A stretch of DNA of 33,275 nt from a virus, in IMG/VR virus record IMGVR_UViG_3300006921_000005, positions 1 through 33,275 of that record, one strand, 5' to 3'. The translations under genes and the position numbers were made by a program. Shown here one piece after another: positions 3,582 through 16,137 of the stretch. The number at the start of each line of letters is the position of its first letter. The first letter of the stretch is position 1. The notes under the pieces are model-generated. The model did not search any database. It was given only the letters and a program-made list of their open reading frames with translations, and was not told the DNA's origin.

Positions 3582-4376
3582 TTAGCTCCTTCCTATTGTT
3601 TTTGATAAATCAGACATATATTTATTTAAACCTTCAGTATCTATTTGTGATTCATCAACTGGCTCTGGTTTATTTTGATTTTTACGGAATAATTCATCTT
3701 TATGCGCTTTAAAATAACCATTCCAATCCTTTTTACTCCAAGTAGCCAACCTTCCTGCCGTACTCCAAGTCTTAAAGGTCTGAAATTTCATCTGCTTACC
3801 ATTTTGGGTAGGCTCTGAATAAAACAAATAAAACTCATCTAACATTTGATGACCGTACTTTTCTTCGTTTTTATCAGTAAAAATTTCTTTATTGAAATCC
3901 ATCATTAAAGTATTTATAGTTTTTTTCTTAACATTCTTAACATTCTTAACATTCTTAACATTCTTGTTTGTTGTTGGCGGTGTGTTGGTAGTGTGTTGGT
4001 GGCGTGTTGGTAGCGTGTTGTTATTATGTTGGCTATCTTGGTAAGCCGTGTAATTACAGATAGTTACCTGTGTTGCTTTGCTGTTGGTTTTGTAGTCAAT
4101 CATACGCATTAACTGCAAGTGCTTTAGGTAGGTTCTAATAGCTGTATTTCCCCACTTAAATACCCGACATAGCTTTTTCTGCGATGTGATTAATTCACCG
4201 CGTTTAACTGTAATAAGCTCGCCCTCAAATACCAGCTCGTTCTCTTTATGGTTAGCCATACAACACAACCAGATAAACGCTTCACGTTTGCTAAAAGGTT
4301 TTCTATCCCTATTAAAAAACTCTGTATCGAATATCTTGCGGTGCAGGGCAATATACCCCTTCACGCTCCCAACCAT
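3582..4376 (-). CDS. Replication initiator / replisome organiser (winged-helix N-terminus)
   Basis: This 264-residue protein has an N-terminus (Y-I-A-L-H-R-K-I-F-D, then K-P-F-S-K-R-E-A-F-I-W-L, L-I-T-V-K-R-G-E-L-I-T-S, then L-C-R-V-F-K-W, R-T-Y-L-K-H-L) of the type found in phage DnaD- or O-like replication proteins, a winged helix that binds the origin. A low-complexity linker rich in Thr, Asn and Lys follows (residues about 115-155, including K-N-V repeated four times). The C-terminal part (about 155-264) is helical with several Trp and may load the host helicase. No helicase or primase is encoded here, so the host replisome must be recruited. The linker DNA holds iterons and AT-rich repeats that look like an origin, as in lambda O. 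The start overlaps the upstream HTH gene by 16 bases. The exact family is uncertain; the role is well supported by position, linker and origin-like DNA. Confidence 0.7.
   Translation of the reverse strand: MVGSVKGYIALHRKIFDTEFFNRDRKPFSKREAFIWLCCMANHKENELVFEGELITVKRGELITSQKKLCRVFKWGNTAIRTYLKHLQLMRMIDYKTNSKATQVTICNYTAYQDSQHNNNTLPTRHQHTTNTPPTTNKNVKNVKNVKNVKKKTINTLMMDFNKEIFTDKNEEKYGHQMLDEFYLFYSEPTQNGKQMKFQTFKTWSTAGRLATWSKKDWNGYFKAHKDELFRKNQNKPEPVDESQIDTEGLNKYMSDLSKTIGRS
3925..3960. repeat. Four perfect 9-bp tandem repeats (TTCTTAACA), AT-rich, possible unwinding element
   Basis: TTCTTAACA occurs four times head to tail at 3925, 3934, 3943 and 3952, with a partial fifth at 3961. The period of 9 keeps the frame and encodes repeated K-N-V. 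The block lies directly next to the 11-bp iterons and is followed downstream on the coding strand by more AT-rich DNA, so it could be the melting region of an origin. Confidence 0.7.
3970..4035. repeat. Six 11-bp iterons (YGTGTTGGTRG), candidate replication origin
   Basis: Units of 11 bp begin at 3970, 3981, 3992, 4003, 4014 and 4025; the middle four share GTGTTG almost exactly, with two more degenerate outer copies. The period of 11 is not a multiple of 3, so the repeats do not follow codons and are best explained by selection on the DNA, one site per helical turn. They lie in the linker-coding part of the replication gene, as lambda iterons do in gene O. Confidence 0.65.
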
Positions 4377-4528: not shown

Positions 4529-4910
4529 TGAATGTAACCTCGCATATTGTATTATGGTCATCGTCAGTATAAAACTGCACCCCTTTAGGATAAAAACTTC
4601 GAGTACCTTCCAATATTTCAACCCGCTCAGTTTCTATATCTACTTCAAATTGTACAAAATTACGACTATTTAAAAATACTAATTCATCTGAATCCTCAAA
4701 AACTACAGTAACCTTTTCTACAATAACACAAACTTCAAACCTATGCGACGAATAACCTGTAACCGCACGCCACTCTATTACACAGTTTTTTATTTCATCC
4801 TCAGTAGCACGCCAATCGTCAAACCTTATATCGCTTACATATTTTTTTAGTGTATCGTGCAAAAATGTTACATTAGTACCATCTATTCTACTTGTCAGCA
4901 TATTTTCCAT
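4521..4910 (-). CDS. Unknown early protein (129 residues)
   Basis: No family is recognised. The protein is acidic and rich in beta-prone alternations (F-E-V-C-V-I-V-E-K-V-T-V-V-F-E, V-Q-F-E-V-D-I-E-T-E-R-V-E-I). A helix-prone N-terminal third contains F-D-D-W-R-A-T-E-D-E-I. The start at ATG 4910 is firm: AAGGA lies 6 bases upstream and the region before it is non-coding. It leads a small operon with the HTH protein and the replication initiator, which it overlaps in sequence. It may take part in replication or its control, but this is position-based inference only. Confidence 0.7.
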   Translation of the reverse strand: MENMLTSRIDGTNVTFLHDTLKKYVSDIRFDDWRATEDEIKNCVIEWRAVTGYSSHRFEVCVIVEKVTVVFEDSDELVFLNSRNFVQFEVDIETERVEILEGTRSFYPKGVQFYTDDDHNTICEVTFNG

Positions 4911-4950
4911 ATCGTTCCTTAAATTAATTATCTATAAACTAGGCTTAAAA

Positions 4951-5023: not shown

Positions 5024-5386
5024 TTAAAACGGTATATCATCATCAGTAACCCCAGCACCTTCTGCTGGTTCACCACCTTTAGCGGGTAATGTAGCCCCAA
5101 CTGGCATATTACTGGGGTCGAGCTTTAAACCACCCTTACCCTGTAACTCTAGTGCTTTTGGAAGCAATGCCGTTACGCCATCATCGGTTAGTATAACTAT
5201 TTTATTATATTCGTCGTCTTTTGATTTTACTGACGGAACGCCTATAAATAAATCAGTTTTACCCTGCACCAGCTTAAAACCTTTTACGATTCCAAATCCG
5301 TGTATTTTAACATCGAAAAACGCTTTAATGTGCCCCCATTGTCCAACGTGCATACGCACTATCTCGAAAGGGTTTTCTGTTGTCAT
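5024..5386 (-). CDS. SpoVG-like nucleic-acid-binding protein with an SSB-type acidic tail
   Basis: This 120-residue protein probably binds single-stranded DNA or RNA. Residues about 18-66 (G-H-I-K-A-F-F-D-V-K-I-H-G-F-G-I-V-K-G-F-K-L-V-Q-G then L-F-I-G-V-P-S) follow the SpoVG core, in which a beta-hairpin is followed by x-x-G-x-x-G-L-F-V-A-M-P-S. The C-terminus is a flexible Gly/Pro/Ala-rich linker ending D-D-D-I-P-F at 115-120, the kind of acidic tip with which SSB proteins bind replication and repair partners. It lies 1 base after the Rad52-like gene stop, with AAGGA 8 bases before its ATG, so the two are probably co-expressed as an annealing protein and its strand-binding partner. The gene appears to fill the slot of a phage SSB. 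The tail is clear; the SpoVG assignment is by pattern only. Confidence 0.65.
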   Translation of the reverse strand: MTTENPFEIVRMHVGQWGHIKAFFDVKIHGFGIVKGFKLVQGKTDLFIGVPSVKSKDDEYNKIVILTDDGVTALLPKALELQGKGGLKLDPSNMPVGATLPAKGGEPAEGAGVTDDDIPF

Positions 5387-5387
5387 A

Positions 5388-6053
5388 TTATTTATCCTTA
5401 TTTTTAGCGTCGTGCGTCGTTACTCTATCTTCCATAGTTTTTAAATACGCATCTGCTTGTGCTTTTGTTTGTATTTTACGCCAATAATTATTAGCGTCCT
5501 GTTTTTTTCCTTTGAAAAATGGGTGGCTTAGTAACTCTTGATAGCGTTCCTTCTGCTTATCCGTAACCCAGTTATCTTGAGCAATATTATCAACGGCTGA
5601 CGGCTTCCAATTAAAAGGCATTTGCCATTTACCGCCTTTATTTTCTAACCCATCCCCGTTACTGATAAAAATAGTACCCTGTGAATATAAATCACGACCT
5701 ATGCCAAATTTAACCGCACATCGTTTAAACGCGTCGCTAGCTTCACCCTTTTCCTTTTCTACATTGCTTTCAGTTCCGCAATCACTTTTACTAATAGTGG
5801 CTAATTCACCAAGCTCATTAACAAAAGTAATAGTAATTGTACAAAAAAGTACACTACCTATTCGTTCATACTTATCAGCCCAGCAACCTGCGCCGACAAC
5901 ACTATCTAGCGTGTCCATAACATAACGGGCATCGACATAAGTAAGTGCCGTGCCTTTCCCATTGTTATTATCATAAACTCGCCCAACTCTATACTTTTTT
6001 TCGCTATTAGGCGTGGGTTTCGCCAGTAATAGCAAGTCTTCAGCTTTTACCAT
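5388..6053 (-). CDS. Rad52/Rad22-family single-strand annealing protein
   Basis: This 221-residue protein is predicted to coat single strands and anneal complementary DNA during phage recombination. The Rad52 signature is clear: T-A-L-T-Y-V-D-A-R-Y-V-M-D-T-L-D around 36-50, V-V-G-A-G-C-W at 52-58, a beta strand C-T-I-T-I-T-F, then E-K-G-E-A-S-D-A-F-K-R-C-A-V-K-F-G-I-G-R-D-L-Y around 101-123, the conserved A-x-x-D-A-x-K-R-x-x-x-x-F-G segment. The C-terminal 90 residues are lysine-rich and variable. ATG 6053 follows AAGGAG at 4 bases. A GTTTAAAC copy (5723-5730) is embedded in the A-F-K-R codons of the signature. It pairs with the downstream SpoVG-like gene and the RusA-like resolvase to form a recombination set. 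Confidence 0.85.
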   Translation of the reverse strand: MVKAEDLLLLAKPTPNSEKKYRVGRVYDNNNGKGTALTYVDARYVMDTLDSVVGAGCWADKYERIGSVLFCTITITFVNELGELATISKSDCGTESNVEKEKGEASDAFKRCAVKFGIGRDLYSQGTIFISNGDGLENKGGKWQMPFNWKPSAVDNIAQDNWVTDKQKERYQELLSHPFFKGKKQDANNYWRKIQTKAQADAYLKTMEDRVTTHDAKNKDK

Positions 6054-7144: not shown

Positions 7145-7729
7145 TTAGTCCTGCTCCATATAATGACCGACGGGGCAAGTAGGTGTACCATAATGGTCTA
7201 TAGTAGACTGGCTCATTCTTATGATATATTGCGTTCCATAATCAGCACACTCTGGGCAGTAAACTTTTTTCAGCCTAGTGCTTTGTTTTTTGCCAACATA
7301 ATTTAGAGCCTTATGCGGGTATTTGCCGATTTTTTTAGCTAAAGCCTTTAACGTCTTATTTAATTCAGACCCTGCTACTGTAGCGGTCATCTGTCCTTTA
7401 AGTCCAATAGCTACCGCAATATCTCTAAACGGTTTGCCGTGTCCGTGTTTGCAATTTAACTTATGGTGTATTAGCTCGTGCGCCAACACATCAGCTACGC
7501 GGATACTTTTGCTTAATTCGGGGTGGATAAATATTTCATTATAGCCATTAACTAAATCACTAAAACAAACCCCTATAGTTTTATTAAATGCGTGTCCGCC
7601 TTTAGGTGGATAACCGCAACTAATTCTAACCTTTTTCATATTTAAAGGATGGCCAGCAGGCTTAAAAACTTTAGTATTTAATTCTCTTGCCATCTTGTTA
7701 AGCCATTCTTCTCTAGTAATACGTGCCAT
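7145..7729 (-). CDS. SprT-like zinc metalloprotein
   Basis: This 194-residue protein has the metallopeptidase signature H-E-L-I-H (residues 84-88) with the conserved continuation H-K-L-N-C-K-H-G-H-G-K-P-F-R, typical of SprT/Spartan-like domains in phages, where a further histidine completes the zinc site. The C-terminal part has a second metal site, Y-C-P-E-C near 160 and C-P-V-G-H near 187. The start at ATG 7729 follows the upstream stop by 1 base with GGGGGAT before it; a frame from 7759 overlaps the previous gene. SprT-like proteins digest DNA-protein crosslinks in cells; in phages they may process host or phage proteins on DNA. The role here is unproven. Confidence 0.75.
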   Translation of the reverse strand: MARITREEWLNKMARELNTKVFKPAGHPLNMKKVRISCGYPPKGGHAFNKTIGVCFSDLVNGYNEIFIHPELSKSIRVADVLAHELIHHKLNCKHGHGKPFRDIAVAIGLKGQMTATVAGSELNKTLKALAKKIGKYPHKALNYVGKKQSTRLKKVYCPECADYGTQYIIRMSQSTIDHYGTPTCPVGHYMEQD

Positions 7730-7730
7730 C

Positions 7731-8006
7731 TTATTTATCCCCCCTAAAATCACCATCAAGATAATCCCGTTTTAGCTTAAACTGCACTACGAATAGTTCA
7801 TCGTGATTAGTATTGTCTAGTATGTATTCAGCCGTAACATACTTACAAACCAAATCGCAGAAATTAACCATAATCTTTTTACCGTATTTTTTAGGTACTG
7901 ATACGATTATGTATTCGTACTTATTGCTTACTGCTATTTCACTATCACGTACTAAGCCATCGGTATATGCTAGCGACTTTAAGATACAATCATATAAATA
8001 ATCCAT
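7731..8006 (-). CDS. Unknown early protein (91 residues)
   Basis: No family is recognised. The start at ATG 8006 has a good ribosome site (GAGAGGA, 5 bases upstream), and the stop is 1 base before the SprT-like start. The protein looks like a small alpha/beta domain: a helical N-terminus (M-D-Y-L-Y-D-C-I-L-K-S-L), a strand Y-E-Y-I-I-V-S-V, K-K-Y-G-K-K-I-M-V-N-F-C-D-L, then L-F-V-V-Q-F-K-L-K-R and an acidic/basic end. It contains no metal motif or membrane segment. It belongs to the three-gene unit that starts after the second structured leader. Confidence 0.6.
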   Translation of the reverse strand: MDYLYDCILKSLAYTDGLVRDSEIAVSNKYEYIIVSVPKKYGKKIMVNFCDLVCKYVTAEYILDNTNHDELFVVQFKLKRDYLDGDFRGDK

Positions 8007-10794: not shown

Positions 10795-13700
10795 TTACCC
10801 TATATTTAATATTGATTGTACTACAGAAACTATATCTAGTATGTTTATAATTCCGTCATTTGTAAAACCATCAGCGACAGCAAACTGCTCATCTGTTAAG
10901 GGAAAATTTGCTGGGTTTATTACATAGGTTGCAATTTGTACAACATCTAAAACATTAACAAACCCATCTAAATTAATATCACCCGCCTCATATACGAAAT
11001 CGCCGTATAATGCGGGGTCTGTGTTACTATCCCAAGCCCGTTCATAACACGTATTGTTAAACGGTATATCGATAGGGCTTGTGCTGTAATTCCATATCCT
11101 AATATATTCGAAAGCAGAATGTGCGTTGTTATTCTTTATATTTAATAGCCCCGCAGGCAAATACCCTTCAGTACCACCAGCGGTTCTCAAAACTTGAAAT
11201 TTTTGATAAGGATGCGAGCAAAACCCAAAATTTTCGGTCGCTAAAGCTACGAAATCATATAAATCTGTTTGGTTTTGGTATGGGTTTTTGTGTGAACGGT
11301 ACTGTACGGCACAAACTGGTAGCCCTGCATCGCTCTGGGGAAGCCCGTCCGCGTGCCCTTGTGCGTTTTCGTAGAGCGTTCCTAGTGGGTTGCCTATTCT
11401 TAATTTAGTATCTGTATCAAAATCTGCATCAGAATTATCGGGGTTTTCCCCGTGCATCTTGCGATAACTCACCCAGTTGTAATCTTGGCTACTATTATTT
11501 ACGTACTTTGTATCGGTTGTTGCCCCTTCGATCCCAAGCCTTCCCATAGGCACGCCCCAAGCGTTTTCATACTGTTGCCCGTCCAATGCTACACGTACTT
11601 CCTCGCTATCGTTGCCATTAGGCAATTCATCGTAATCTGTATAAACCCCCACTCGTTGGGAATAATTAAACTGCCAAAGCATTTTAGCAGGTTCGCCCCC
11701 TGCCGTAACGGGGCTTTCAGTTGAAACGCCAAACGAGTAATCATCTGTAGGTAGATTATCTAAAATATCTTCAGCTATTGCCTTCATAATGTGCTCGCCC
11801 TTATCTTTTAGGGTGTGGTTAGGGGTAGTAAATAGCTCGTTAATATGTTCAACCCCCCCGCCAAGCGCATTTAATATGGGTGCTATATAAGTTTCATAAG
11901 CATCTATAAGTGAATTAGCCCCTACGGTTGCATTTCCTCCCCCATCTTCATAAACGTAAAAATCTCCATCCTTAACAATACCCCAACTATTTATATAATC
12001 TCCGATAGTTACGTCTGACCCGTCGGGTACATAACCAATATTAGGTATAGCGAAATAATCCTGCGTTACATAATACCTATACCAAAGTAAAAGCGAAATA
12101 TAATACTTTTCGAAGTCATTATAAAACCCATCTAGCACAGTAAACCCAACCCATATATTGGAGGACTGGTACTTCGAAATGTTTACAATATAGTTTGGCT
12201 GGCTGTTGTTTATAAGGTCGGAAAATTTTACTAATGACCACGCCCCACTATTATCGATGCCGTGATTAAGACTGTAAAAGTGGGCATATTCAGTTGTATC
12301 ATACTGTGAAGCACGTAATACATTTGCGTATATATAGGGATACGTCCAATAATGACTCTTGTCATTAATCGGGTCGTTAGTTTCGTGGTCGCCTACAACC
12401 CCGCCAGCGTTTATACACTTTATTAGATGGCTATCTGTTGAGCATTGTTTTTGATTGGGAATAGTGTCTAAGGTTGTCATTCGGCGAGTAGCTTGCGGGT
12501 GTTCGGGATTTTCATAGCCTGCCAGTATGGGATTCGTATAATATGTTTCTGTATTATCTTCGTAGGGAATAACTAACTGTCCGTGCTTTAGTTTTATATC
12601 AACCCACCCAGCACGCATTACATTATTATCATCTAAATACGCGGGGGGTACTTGTTCCGTTGAGCTAGTAAATTCACATATACTATTCGTAGGCTGGTTC
12701 GCAGTAAATGAATAATTAGTAGCATAAGGAATCGTACAACCCTCAACAGGAAAAAATACTTCGTCTGGGTTGTAGCAGACCCCATCATCGCAAGGCTGTG
12801 GGGGCGCACCTAGATAATCTTTTAAGTGCATTAATTGCAATACTTCAATTTCCACAGAATCTATAGAATAATCACACTTATTAACCACAAAAAACGGTAA
12901 AAAATATTGCCCATTTATTTTAATTTCAGACTGTTTAAACGGTTCGTCATACTGGAAGAAGCTACCTTCTTCGGGTATTTCGCTGAAATCCATTTCATCT
13001 TCGTCAAAATAGATATTAGGGTTTATCATTTGAGAATACCACGAAGTAGTATAATCCTTCCCTAAAACACGCATATCCTCTGGCAAATAATCAAATCTGA
13101 TTATCGAACCTATATGTAAATCGATATACTTTAAAGGTAAAGTCATTTTTATTTTTATTTTTTGGTTACAATTATTTTTAATATAAAAATCCCTATATCG
13201 GTTTGCTTCCTCTAGGCTGTTGATATTTGGACATTCCAATACTTGATGACCAGCGCCCTGCGTAGTATTATAAAAATCATAGTCATAATCTGGGTAATAA
13301 TCTTGCGCCGTTGCCGTATCTGTTTTTAAAATCTTATCTAAACCTAATTCGTATTTATCCCCGCCATATATAACCTCTGCCCCTGTGCATATATCTTTTA
13401 TTTTTGTGGTTTCGACTTTTATTTTTAAATAGTCCATATCGATTAACCTAAAATCGTACATAGTTTCATTTCCTATATACGTGTCTTTTATCAAAAAACT
13501 GGCTAATTTTTCTTTTGACCCTGTGGTCATTAAAAATGGGAAGCTGTTAGTATGTTTTAATATATTCTCTGTTGCTGACAGTAAGGTTTCTGGTTCACTA
13601 ATTGTATAATTTGAAGTGCTAGGGTATAGCTGATTTATTGTGCCATCTTGGTTTAAAGCTTGATATATAATTTGGTATTTATAGTCAGAAGTACCCACGC

Positions 13701-16137
13701 CCATAAATTGCATCCCAAGCGTTTTTCTCCACAAATAGGCTACCTGCATCATTGGCATATTTCTATAATCGACAATAGTAGGTAAATAGTCTGCTTCTTC
13801 TAACATACTAAACCCATCCCCTTTAACGTACATTCTATCTACGCTATCTAGTAAATCGGGTTTTAAAAAATGATGCGTTAGGGCTAATTTTTCCAAAAAT
13901 AGTTCGACGTTTGCTACAGCGTAAACATCTTGATTATTTTCATTGAGTGGTAAATTTTCTGTTGAATTATATGACGACCATTGGTTATGGGGTAATTCTT
14001 CATTAGACACACCATACCCGCTATTGGGTACTATTCTTAAATTTAAATGGCTATTGAAAATTTCCTCACCGCTGTTAAGCTGTTGATAAATATCATTGGC
14101 ATAGTATTCGTTGTCATATTGCATAAAATCATTTATATCCCACCTGTCATATATAGGGAAACCTTCTTCGGCTGGTTCTTGGGTCAGCCAATCATCATCG
14201 TCTGTCCATTCGCGTAGCATAACTTTTTTAGACATTCCGTTTTCGTTAGTCTGAATATCCCCCCCTGTAAGTTGTGAAGTATATACTAAATCGAACCAAA
14301 ATTTATGCGTTATGGCTGAAATAATATCATCATCCAATAGGCTAGGGAAGCCATTGCTATCAACAGGCATACCTTCAAGAAATTGCGATTCTGTCCAAAT
14401 TAGACTCACATCGAAAACAGTCTGCAATACTTCCTCGCATCTTGGGTTAGCAGTTGTAATAGATAATAAATATGAGCTTAACCTGTTCATATAGTTCTGC
14501 TCTGGCATAGTACCACTTGGGAAAGTAAAAGGAAACCACTCCAGATGGGATTCCATATCTACGTGCGTATCTACTAGGCTGTTTTCGTATGATGAATGGT
14601 CGCCCGTAAGTATTTTTACGGAAAGTATAGCCCCTTTTGCGTTAGGGCAATGTACAGAACCATCACCCGCCTCTCCAGAGTTTACACCAAGAACATAAGC
14701 GTCGCTAAGTTGTAATAAGGTTTGCCCACCTTCTACGGCAAATCCCCCATCTATTTTGACAATAGTTGCCATCTCTGACAATACCCCAAAAGTTCCAAGT
14801 TGGGTTCTGTCTTGGTGTGCTAGCGAACGCATAGGGAAAACCTGCAAAGCGTAGGGATCTGTTAATAACCCTTCTGCAAAGGTTTCACCTACAGCGGGTT
14901 GTATTCGTGGTATTTCCTTATGGCTTACATAAATTAAATTTTCTTCTGAATACGATGTAAGTTGTGAACAGCAATCATCTCTAAACTTAAAATAAATTCT
15001 ATGTCCATCATCCGCCTCTGTCCATTGGTTATAAATCCCATCATAGGAGCGTATTCTATGCTTAAATTCGCCATCCAGACCCTCGAGATGAGTTTCCTTT
15101 TCCCCAAAAACTAGCGATTTAAATCGTGTATTAGTCGGTACTGTGTATTCATTATCTCCCTCCAGCAATATCAAATTATTTAACGAGCTTGGGAATGGAA
15201 TGGAAAAATTATTATCCAGATAGTTAAATTTTATTCCTCTTTCACTTTCATCATCTATGGATATTTCTGGGTATAGCGTATGGTAGCGCTCATCGCCAAA
15301 AACCAATGGTTTATATTTTCCATTTGAAGACTCAAAATCAGTATCAAAAGTATCTAGGGTAATATCCTTCTGGGCAATTTCACTAAAAAAAGATTCGCAT
15401 TGCAACGTAGCATATTTCGTATCTTGCTTATATGATTTTACTGTAGTATCCTGCATATTTGCACAACGCTCTAGCGATATTGTCTTTGTCTTTTGGTTAA
15501 TAGAAGATTCACCAGAATAATAGATATTTACAGTCATTCCTATCATATTGTAAAGGATTTGGTTGCCCCAAATACTAGCGTTACCCCAACCGTCTTCGAA
15601 TTGGCTGAAAATATCATTATCACCACTAACTAAAGGAACATCAACATTATCAGTAGTACCCAAAACGCCAAGCCCCCGTTTCCAGTACGGATTAGCTAGC
15701 ATATCTGTCAAAAATTCATCCTGTAAACTGTAAGTAAATTGCCCTTCCGCCCACATTGTAGAGTGAAAAATTTTCCTATCTATACCGAGATTAAACATTT
15801 TAATACTTACGTTAGGGATGACTATTTTTTTATTTTTTATATCTACTTTATGTTTTATTTTCCCTACAGATTTTAAAAAAGGGTATAATTTTAAAGGTTC
15901 GGGTAAAGTGCTACCAGATGGCTCGTTTCCTTCGGGATTTCCCACCTCGTTAGGGTATTCGTTTTGGTGGCTATTTATCCATTCGGATTCTGTATTATTA
16001 TCCTTAAAAATTTGTCCACGAGTTTCCCCAAATGCTAGTCTGGGGATTCCACCAATATCGCTAAACACTACTATCACCTTTGGCTTTCTAGGTGATGTTT
16101 TTAACTCATTTATTAAATCCGATGGTATACTAGGCAT
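10795..16137 (-). CDS. Giant tail-tip / host-recognition protein with a C-terminal dockerin-like module
   Basis: At 1780 residues this is the largest gene, directly after the tape measure, the usual place of the central tail-tip (J-like) or baseplate hub protein. The N-terminal third contains F-S-D-I-G-G-I-P-R-L and many Trp/Tyr-rich strand segments. The mid region around residue 1130 carries G-C-T-I-P-Y-A-T-N-Y-S-F then S-I-C-E-F, a variant of the G-C-T-D-P-x-A-x-N-Y-N repeat common in secreted proteins of aquatic bacteria. The end (about 1715-1780) has two calcium-binding loops, G-D-I-N-L-D-G-F-V-N-V-L-D and A-D-G-F-T-N-D-G-I-I-N-I-L-D, each followed by a helix, i.e. a type I dockerin pattern. 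Dockerins bind cohesins in cellulosomes; here the module may bind host surface protein or another tail part. No catalytic motif is seen. GTTTAAAC occurs at 12933 inside the gene and at 16156 just upstream. Confidence 0.75.
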   Translation of the reverse strand: MPSIPSDLINELKTSPRKPKVIVVFSDIGGIPRLAFGETRGQIFKDNNTESEWINSHQNEYPNEVGNPEGNEPSGSTLPEPLKLYPFLKSVGKIKHKVDIKNKKIVIPNVSIKMFNLGIDRKIFHSTMWAEGQFTYSLQDEFLTDMLANPYWKRGLGVLGTTDNVDVPLVSGDNDIFSQFEDGWGNASIWGNQILYNMIGMTVNIYYSGESSINQKTKTISLERCANMQDTTVKSYKQDTKYATLQCESFFSEIAQKDITLDTFDTDFESSNGKYKPLVFGDERYHTLYPEISIDDESERGIKFNYLDNNFSIPFPSSLNNLILLEGDNEYTVPTNTRFKSLVFGEKETHLEGLDGEFKHRIRSYDGIYNQWTEADDGHRIYFKFRDDCCSQLTSYSEENLIYVSHKEIPRIQPAVGETFAEGLLTDPYALQVFPMRSLAHQDRTQLGTFGVLSEMATIVKIDGGFAVEGGQTLLQLSDAYVLGVNSGEAGDGSVHCPNAKGAILSVKILTGDHSSYENSLVDTHVDMESHLEWFPFTFPSGTMPEQNYMNRLSSYLLSITTANPRCEEVLQTVFDVSLIWTESQFLEGMPVDSNGFPSLLDDDIISAITHKFWFDLVYTSQLTGGDIQTNENGMSKKVMLREWTDDDDWLTQEPAEEGFPIYDRWDINDFMQYDNEYYANDIYQQLNSGEEIFNSHLNLRIVPNSGYGVSNEELPHNQWSSYNSTENLPLNENNQDVYAVANVELFLEKLALTHHFLKPDLLDSVDRMYVKGDGFSMLEEADYLPTIVDYRNMPMMQVAYLWRKTLGMQFMGVGTSDYKYQIIYQALNQDGTINQLYPSTSNYTISEPETLLSATENILKHTNSFPFLMTTGSKEKLASFLIKDTYIGNETMYDFRLIDMDYLKIKVETTKIKDICTGAEVIYGGDKYELGLDKILKTDTATAQDYYPDYDYDFYNTTQGAGHQVLECPNINSLEEANRYRDFYIKNNCNQKIKIKMTLPLKYIDLHIGSIIRFDYLPEDMRVLGKDYTTSWYSQMINPNIYFDEDEMDFSEIPEEGSFFQYDEPFKQSEIKINGQYFLPFFVVNKCDYSIDSVEIEVLQLMHLKDYLGAPPQPCDDGVCYNPDEVFFPVEGCTIPYATNYSFTANQPTNSICEFTSSTEQVPPAYLDDNNVMRAGWVDIKLKHGQLVIPYEDNTETYYTNPILAGYENPEHPQATRRMTTLDTIPNQKQCSTDSHLIKCINAGGVVGDHETNDPINDKSHYWTYPYIYANVLRASQYDTTEYAHFYSLNHGIDNSGAWSLVKFSDLINNSQPNYIVNISKYQSSNIWVGFTVLDGFYNDFEKYYISLLLWYRYYVTQDYFAIPNIGYVPDGSDVTIGDYINSWGIVKDGDFYVYEDGGGNATVGANSLIDAYETYIAPILNALGGGVEHINELFTTPNHTLKDKGEHIMKAIAEDILDNLPTDDYSFGVSTESPVTAGGEPAKMLWQFNYSQRVGVYTDYDELPNGNDSEEVRVALDGQQYENAWGVPMGRLGIEGATTDTKYVNNSSQDYNWVSYRKMHGENPDNSDADFDTDTKLRIGNPLGTLYENAQGHADGLPQSDAGLPVCAVQYRSHKNPYQNQTDLYDFVALATENFGFCSHPYQKFQVLRTAGGTEGYLPAGLLNIKNNNAHSAFEYIRIWNYSTSPIDIPFNNTCYERAWDSNTDPALYGDFVYEAGDINLDGFVNVLDVVQIATYVINPANFPLTDEQFAVADGFTNDGIINILDIVSVVQSILNIG

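Follow-up and report, generated by a model that had tools for sequence, protein, structure and literature searches.

Intragenic replication origins of phages are already known from gene 38 of SPP1, from ORF20 of 80alpha by genetic inference (PMC5499656) and from gene O of lambda (PMC7466680). In SPP1, the direct repeats of oriL and oriR are both bound by gp38, and each origin contains A+T-rich DNA that acts as its unwinding element (PMC6316719). The origin oriL has been used as a 350-bp fragment covering positions 35801-36151 (PMC5615212), and oriR was reported to be intergenic, about 13 kb away across the circle (PMC6316719). ORF20 of 80alpha is a homologue of SPP1 G38P, and the failure of its trans complementation was read as a sign that ori lies inside the gene (PMC5499656). 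In lambda, iterons followed by an A+T-rich tract occupy the middle of the initiator gene O (PMC7466680).

The window analysed here is a stretch of 33,275 bases from a virus record, and its minus strand carries almost all of the genes. Our analysis indicates that positions 3860-4032 are very probably the (early) replication origin of this phage, located within its own initiator gene, where iterons would be bound by the 264-aa gene product, A+T-rich DNA would open and a helicase would be loaded. The gene and the domains of its product are as follows.

3582..4376, minus strand: replisome-organiser (initiator) gene, 264 aa, from matches to PHROG 2514/186 and SPP1 gene 38 and from the AlphaFold model
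4035..4358, minus strand: part coding for the winged-helix DNA-binding domain, residues 7-114, from model helices and strands and fold matches
About residues 77-89 of the 264-aa protein, minus strand: predicted recognition helix, from the model and the iteron-similarity peak
3714..3917, minus strand: C-terminal helical domain, residues 154-221, predicted to bind a partner, from the model and a Riemerella phage match

The 264-aa protein matched PHROG 2514 (E 9e-28) and PHROG 186 (E 2e-16), both DnaD-like helicase loaders. In tblastn, SPP1 gene 38 aligned with residues 4-127 at 38% identity (E 7e-16), and staphylococcal, Bacillus, Enterococcus and Vibrio phages also contributed replication-protein matches. 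Over the aligned N-terminal domain, identity to SPP1 gene 38 was 40%. Pfam gave no family at E<=1, and a sequence search of solved structures returned nothing useful. The AlphaFold model showed a confident winged helix at about residues 9-114, then a disordered linker at about 118-150, and at 154-221 a small C-terminal domain made of helices. The fold search yielded generic winged-helix matches only (Foldseek best E 0.01, VIA best Z 9.0), including CAP/CRP-like winged helices with Z up to 9.0 and, among the weak matches, TubR and 4pql.

Both repeat arrays fall exactly within the linker-coding DNA of the initiator gene. Read 5' to 3' on the coding strand, 11-mers (4032-3967) are followed by 9-mers (3965-3925) and then by A-rich DNA to about 3860, which confirmed the order, iterons first and A+T-rich DNA second, that had been put forward in the initial annotation.

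3967..4032, minus strand: six head-to-tail 11-bp iterons with a CAACA core, predicted initiator-binding sites, from repeat calls, the synonymous test and the family test
4032-4022, minus strand: 11-mer 1, coding strand, CCAACATAATA
4021-4011, minus strand: 11-mer 2, coding strand, ACAACACGCTA
4010-4000, minus strand: 11-mer 3, coding strand, CCAACACGCCA
3999-3989, minus strand: 11-mer 4, coding strand, CCAACACACTA
3988-3978, minus strand: 11-mer 5, coding strand, CCAACACACCG
3977-3967, minus strand: 11-mer 6, coding strand, CCAACAACAAA
3925..3965, minus strand: 4.6 copies of the A+T-rich 9-bp repeat AAGAATGTT, with which the unwinding element is predicted to begin, from Tandem Repeats Finder and the family motif
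3860..3924, minus strand: A+T-rich continuation of the predicted unwinding element, 82% A+T, from base composition and stability rank

CAACA stands at an identical phase in all six 11-mers, and Tandem Repeats Finder called the 11-bp array at 3972-4020. The six 11-bp units described earlier are thus real, their starts being those of the array at 3967-4032 read in another phase. To estimate chance, the linker was recoded synonymously 5000 times with the codon usage of the phage. The observed period-11 score of 26.5 (mean 5.35) was reached by none of the 5000 recodings, and the best period-11 score outside 3900-4060 in the whole 33-kb window was 6.5. Since 11 is also no multiple of the codon length, the earlier suggestion that this period goes beyond the needs of the protein was upheld.

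The 9-bp array at 3925-3965 has 100% matches between its copies, so the four perfect repeats first noticed extend to 4.6 perfect units, and their unit matches the family motif AABAATGWW described below. They are indeed in frame and encode K-N-V. The period-9 score of the linker was 32 against a mean of 19.9, a level reached by 0.2% of the 5000 synonymous recodings. The adjacent A+T-rich DNA is real as well: positions 3860-3965 are 80% A+T, the segment 3860..3924 codes for linker and for the beginning of the C-terminal domain, and the 100-bp stretch starting at 3868 falls within the lowest 0.5% of the window for stability, though such stretches are not unique there, about eight to a dozen places being equally or more unstable. 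A DnaA-trio reading of the 9-mers was rejected, as AAGAATGTT holds no run of TAG/TAA trios.

Phage records, viral contigs and bacterial genomes together yielded 244 related genes, of which 85 were kept at <70% identity. Each gene was compared with 120 synonymous shuffles using its own codons, with the 60 codons that follow the winged helix taken as the linker. In this linker, period 11 was significant, at the best reachable level, in 59/84 non-redundant relatives and period 22 in 42/84, with any other period significant in at most 6; elsewhere in the gene, period 11 was significant in the winged helix of 3/85 and in the C-terminal part of 1/81. The share was 24/32 and 14/18 under identity cut-offs of 50% and 40%, and 19/25 in a hand-picked subset outside named Bacillota records. 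A significant 11-bp array was missing by the shuffle test in 25/84 relatives, including L004, one of the closest. The iteron units vary widely among relatives (GACACAGAAAA, AACATCAAACC, GACAGCAGCGG, AACAAACAGCT), and therefore it is the 11-bp spacing that the relatives keep. For example, the viral contig L002 encodes a homologue of 56% identity whose linker likewise carries an 11-bp array, built from a different unit, AAACAAATCGC, and followed by an A+T-rich run. In genes with both arrays, the 9-bp array lies downstream of the iterons in every case (36:0), and the mean GC content of the relatives is 0.47 in the iterons, 0.26 in the next 60 bp and 0.38 in the whole gene. Judged from these sequences, the two-part design of 11-bp iterons and then 9-bp repeats turns out to be common to phages of many bacterial groups. 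Repeats of 12 or 24 bp replace the 11-bp ones in the linkers of two genes, L007 (336-393 of the gene) and L030 (135-212 of the gene); as 12 is a codon multiple, a role of these repeats at the DNA level is no more than possible.

Scanned for the 11-bp pair motif and the 9-mer pair motif, the SPP1 record shows them at 35950-36020 and 4890-4941 only. The former site belongs to gene 38 and sits inside the oriL fragment 35801-36151. The latter, which reads GACACAGAAAAGACACAGAACAATATAAACAACAATGATAAACAATGAGAACAAT, carries both motifs on a coding strand that is free of long reading frames there, with no apparent coding function for them; it lies between genes, about 12.9 kb from the gene-38 site across the circle. 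This site fits oriR, for which it is a candidate matched by distance and intergenic position rather than by a published coordinate.

Initiators often autoregulate, and iterons read by a winged helix would suit a repressor too, so that the 11-mers might instead be operators for autorepression of the protein's own operon, with an incidental A+T-rich part and an origin elsewhere. This alternative appears highly improbable, because the iterons lie far inside the coding region, no excess of promoters or terminators was found around the locus, and the fixed order of iterons and A+T-rich 9-mers, together with the match to the SPP1 origin motifs, fits an origin. It is conceivable that the iterons play a double role as origin and operator. 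A search for RNA families found none.

The codon usage of the 9-mer was analysed in 30 genes whose linker has at least three [N/K]-N-x triplets. The middle Asn of the triplet was encoded by AAT in 104/109 cases (104:5), compared with an AAT:AAC ratio of 1058:653 elsewhere in these genes, and the first-position Asn, as an internal control, gave 43 AAT and 25 AAC. The first-position Lys was encoded by AAG in 40/41 cases (40:1), compared with an AAG:AAA ratio of 267:637 elsewhere. When each gene was counted once, which guards against tandem copying, the middle Asn codons were all AAT in 27/30 genes (17.3 expected, P 9e-5) and the first-position Lys codons all AAG in 13/14 (4.2 expected). The consensus across relatives was AABAATGWW. 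On the evidence of these codons, the 9-mer is a DNA signal, locked at silent positions across relatives, and not the possible protein feature (K-N-V) for which it was taken in the initial annotation.

These data bear on whether replication slippage in an Asn/Lys/Thr-rich, low-complexity disordered linker could have produced the repeats as a by-product that plays no role at the DNA level. The linker is indeed predicted to be disordered, and the in-frame K-N-V repeats of the protein explain most of the period-9 score (19.9 of 32). However, a period of 11 that is no codon multiple and that none of the 5000 recodings reproduced, its retention with different units in 59/84 relatives, the locked silent positions of the 9-mer and the joint recurrence of both motifs in intergenic SPP1 DNA leave such a by-product scarcely credible. 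Least probable of all is a partition (centromere) site or an SPP1-oriR-like fork-stalling site in place of an initiation site: winged-helix proteins like TubR, a weak Foldseek match here, bind direct repeats for partition, and a fork-stalling role has been suggested for SPP1 oriR (PMC6316719), but no TubZ or ParA-like partner was seen among the ORFs tested, and the window has a single iteron cluster, which lies within the initiator gene, like SPP1 oriL.

The intragenic origin is well supported by the homologous family, the experimentally known homologous origin, the codon-level tests and the covariation of the iterons with the recognition helix. The covariation was measured in 58 genes, in which iteron similarity correlated with identity in the predicted recognition helix (residues 74-89) at r 0.32 and with identity in the rest of the domain at 0.25. 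The partial correlation was 0.23 (permutation P 0.0005, a permutation that leaves some shared ancestry in), and in a sliding window the correlation peaked at residues 74-87. It seems from these comparisons that similarity between iterons follows the predicted recognition helix more closely than general relatedness would explain, which is supporting rather than conclusive. GC skew, proposed earlier as a check, showed no switch at the locus, the cumulative skew falling almost steadily along the window; it is undecisive because nearly all genes lie on one strand.

For initiation at the proposed intragenic origin, we envisage that copies of the 264-aa protein bind the six iterons via their winged-helix domains, one protomer per iteron, and that the protomers would all lie on one face of the helix, as 11 bp correspond to about one turn. 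The assembled complex would strain the adjoining A+T-rich DNA, which would open from the 9-bp AABAATGWW repeats onward; at the opened DNA, the host DnaB-type helicase may then be loaded by the C-terminal domain or a partner. The loading step is a point against this scheme, as none of the window ORFs tested was recognised as a helicase or a helicase loader. A helicase contact of the C-terminal domain is plausible, because a piece of this domain is shared with the short protein of Riemerella phage vB_RanS_CRP6 (L030, 1162-1692), which has the 12-bp linker repeats and is encoded directly before a replicative helicase. This likeness between sequences suggests that the C-terminal domain may be a helicase-contact module shuffled between initiators.

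Near the initiator gene, the window encodes a Rad52/Erf-like annealing protein (5388-6053), and a RusA-like resolvase is encoded at 1463-1819. This pair is in keeping with the SPP1 scheme, in which theta replication gives way to recombination-dependent concatemers. Beside the annealing protein, the minus strand also encodes a SpoVG-like protein (PF04026, E 1e-8; both genes within 5024-6053), and the order of annealing protein, SpoVG-like protein, short ORF and initiator appears to be maintained in L002 (3931-4998). Other genes of the minus strand encode a ParB-like nuclease domain fused to a DNA methyltransferase (259-1404; PHROG 498, E 4e-99; PHROG 620, E 7e-30), a SprT-like zinc metalloprotease (7145-7759; PF10263, E 2e-6) and, in the structural gene region, a 1780-aa protein with a C-terminal dockerin-like calcium-binding repeat (10795-16137; Dockerin_1, E 0.0011, just under the curated cut-off).

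With the proposed origin, the start of replication in an uncultured phage would be narrowed down to about 170 bp and its predicted binding protein named. The underlying rule, 11-bp iterons and then AABAATGWW 9-mers in the linker of a winged-helix initiator, ought to reveal the origins of many phages with no need for experiments, and the overlap of origin and coding sequence would account for the unusual richness of these initiators' linkers in Asn and Lys. It also raises the question of what reads the 9-mers once the DNA opens. We tentatively propose, at somewhat less than even chances, that the AABAATGWW array is a distinct, sequence-specific origin element conserved in phages of several bacterial phyla, acting beyond its A+T richness as a read-out site for the initiator or helicase loader on the opened strand, and that together with the freely varying 11-bp iterons, set by the recognition helix, it would form a general code for intragenic phage origins. 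What may be new or under-described is how widely the 11-bp rule applies and that the 9-mer is codon-locked: literature searches on 11-bp iterons and on the sequences of the 9-mer brought up no earlier account of them, with older SPP1 box papers outside their coverage, and no priority is claimed.

Among more distant systems, RepA-type initiators of staphylococcal plasmids likewise read direct repeats through a winged-helix domain, and 4pql, which we take to be the N-terminal domain of the iteron initiator RepA, was a weak fold match (E 0.024; Z 7.3, rmsd 5.6); however, there is no detectable sequence relation, and the fold match is shared with many winged helices. The label "Lambda-O-like" in the initial annotation holds for mechanism and layout, with iterons and then A+T-rich DNA inside the initiator gene as in ori-lambda, but not for the family, given the PHROG 2514/186 and SPP1 gene 38 matches and the short direct iterons. 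Lambda O belongs to the Pfam family Phage_rep_O, whereas the 264-aa protein matched no family there, and lambda iterons are longer, palindrome-like and about two turns apart, in contrast to the direct 11-bp units in the window. A weak sequence match to HK620/HK022-type O was detected (E 0.004), and the annotated rep_origin in gene O of the lambdoid phage HK620 contains three 11-bp-spaced units.

By description, 80alpha ORF20 is likewise a G38P-like replication protein, with ori presumed to lie in its gene (PMC5499656), although 80alpha works with a DnaC-like loader. Its relatives, the staphylococcal phages PVL, StB27 and phi879, have both the 11-bp and the 9-bp arrays. SPP1 differs from the window in its iteron unit (ACGAAAAAGAC, compared with CCAACACACTA here), in the C-terminal part of gp38, which has no detectable similarity to the 264-aa protein, and in encoding the loader gp39 and the helicase gp40, neither of which was found in the window. 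SPP1 also has the second, distant origin oriR, a feature not known to define the family, whereas scans of the window, a record that may be incomplete, revealed neither a second iteron cluster (26 loose matches, 18.7 expected) nor a second 9-mer array. What SPP1 gene 38/oriL shares with this locus is a homologous winged-helix domain and a linker with 11-bp direct repeats followed by in-frame 9-bp AACAATGAT repeats. The nearest kin of this initiator and origin is SPP1 gene 38/oriL, together with 80alpha ORF20, and not lambda O.
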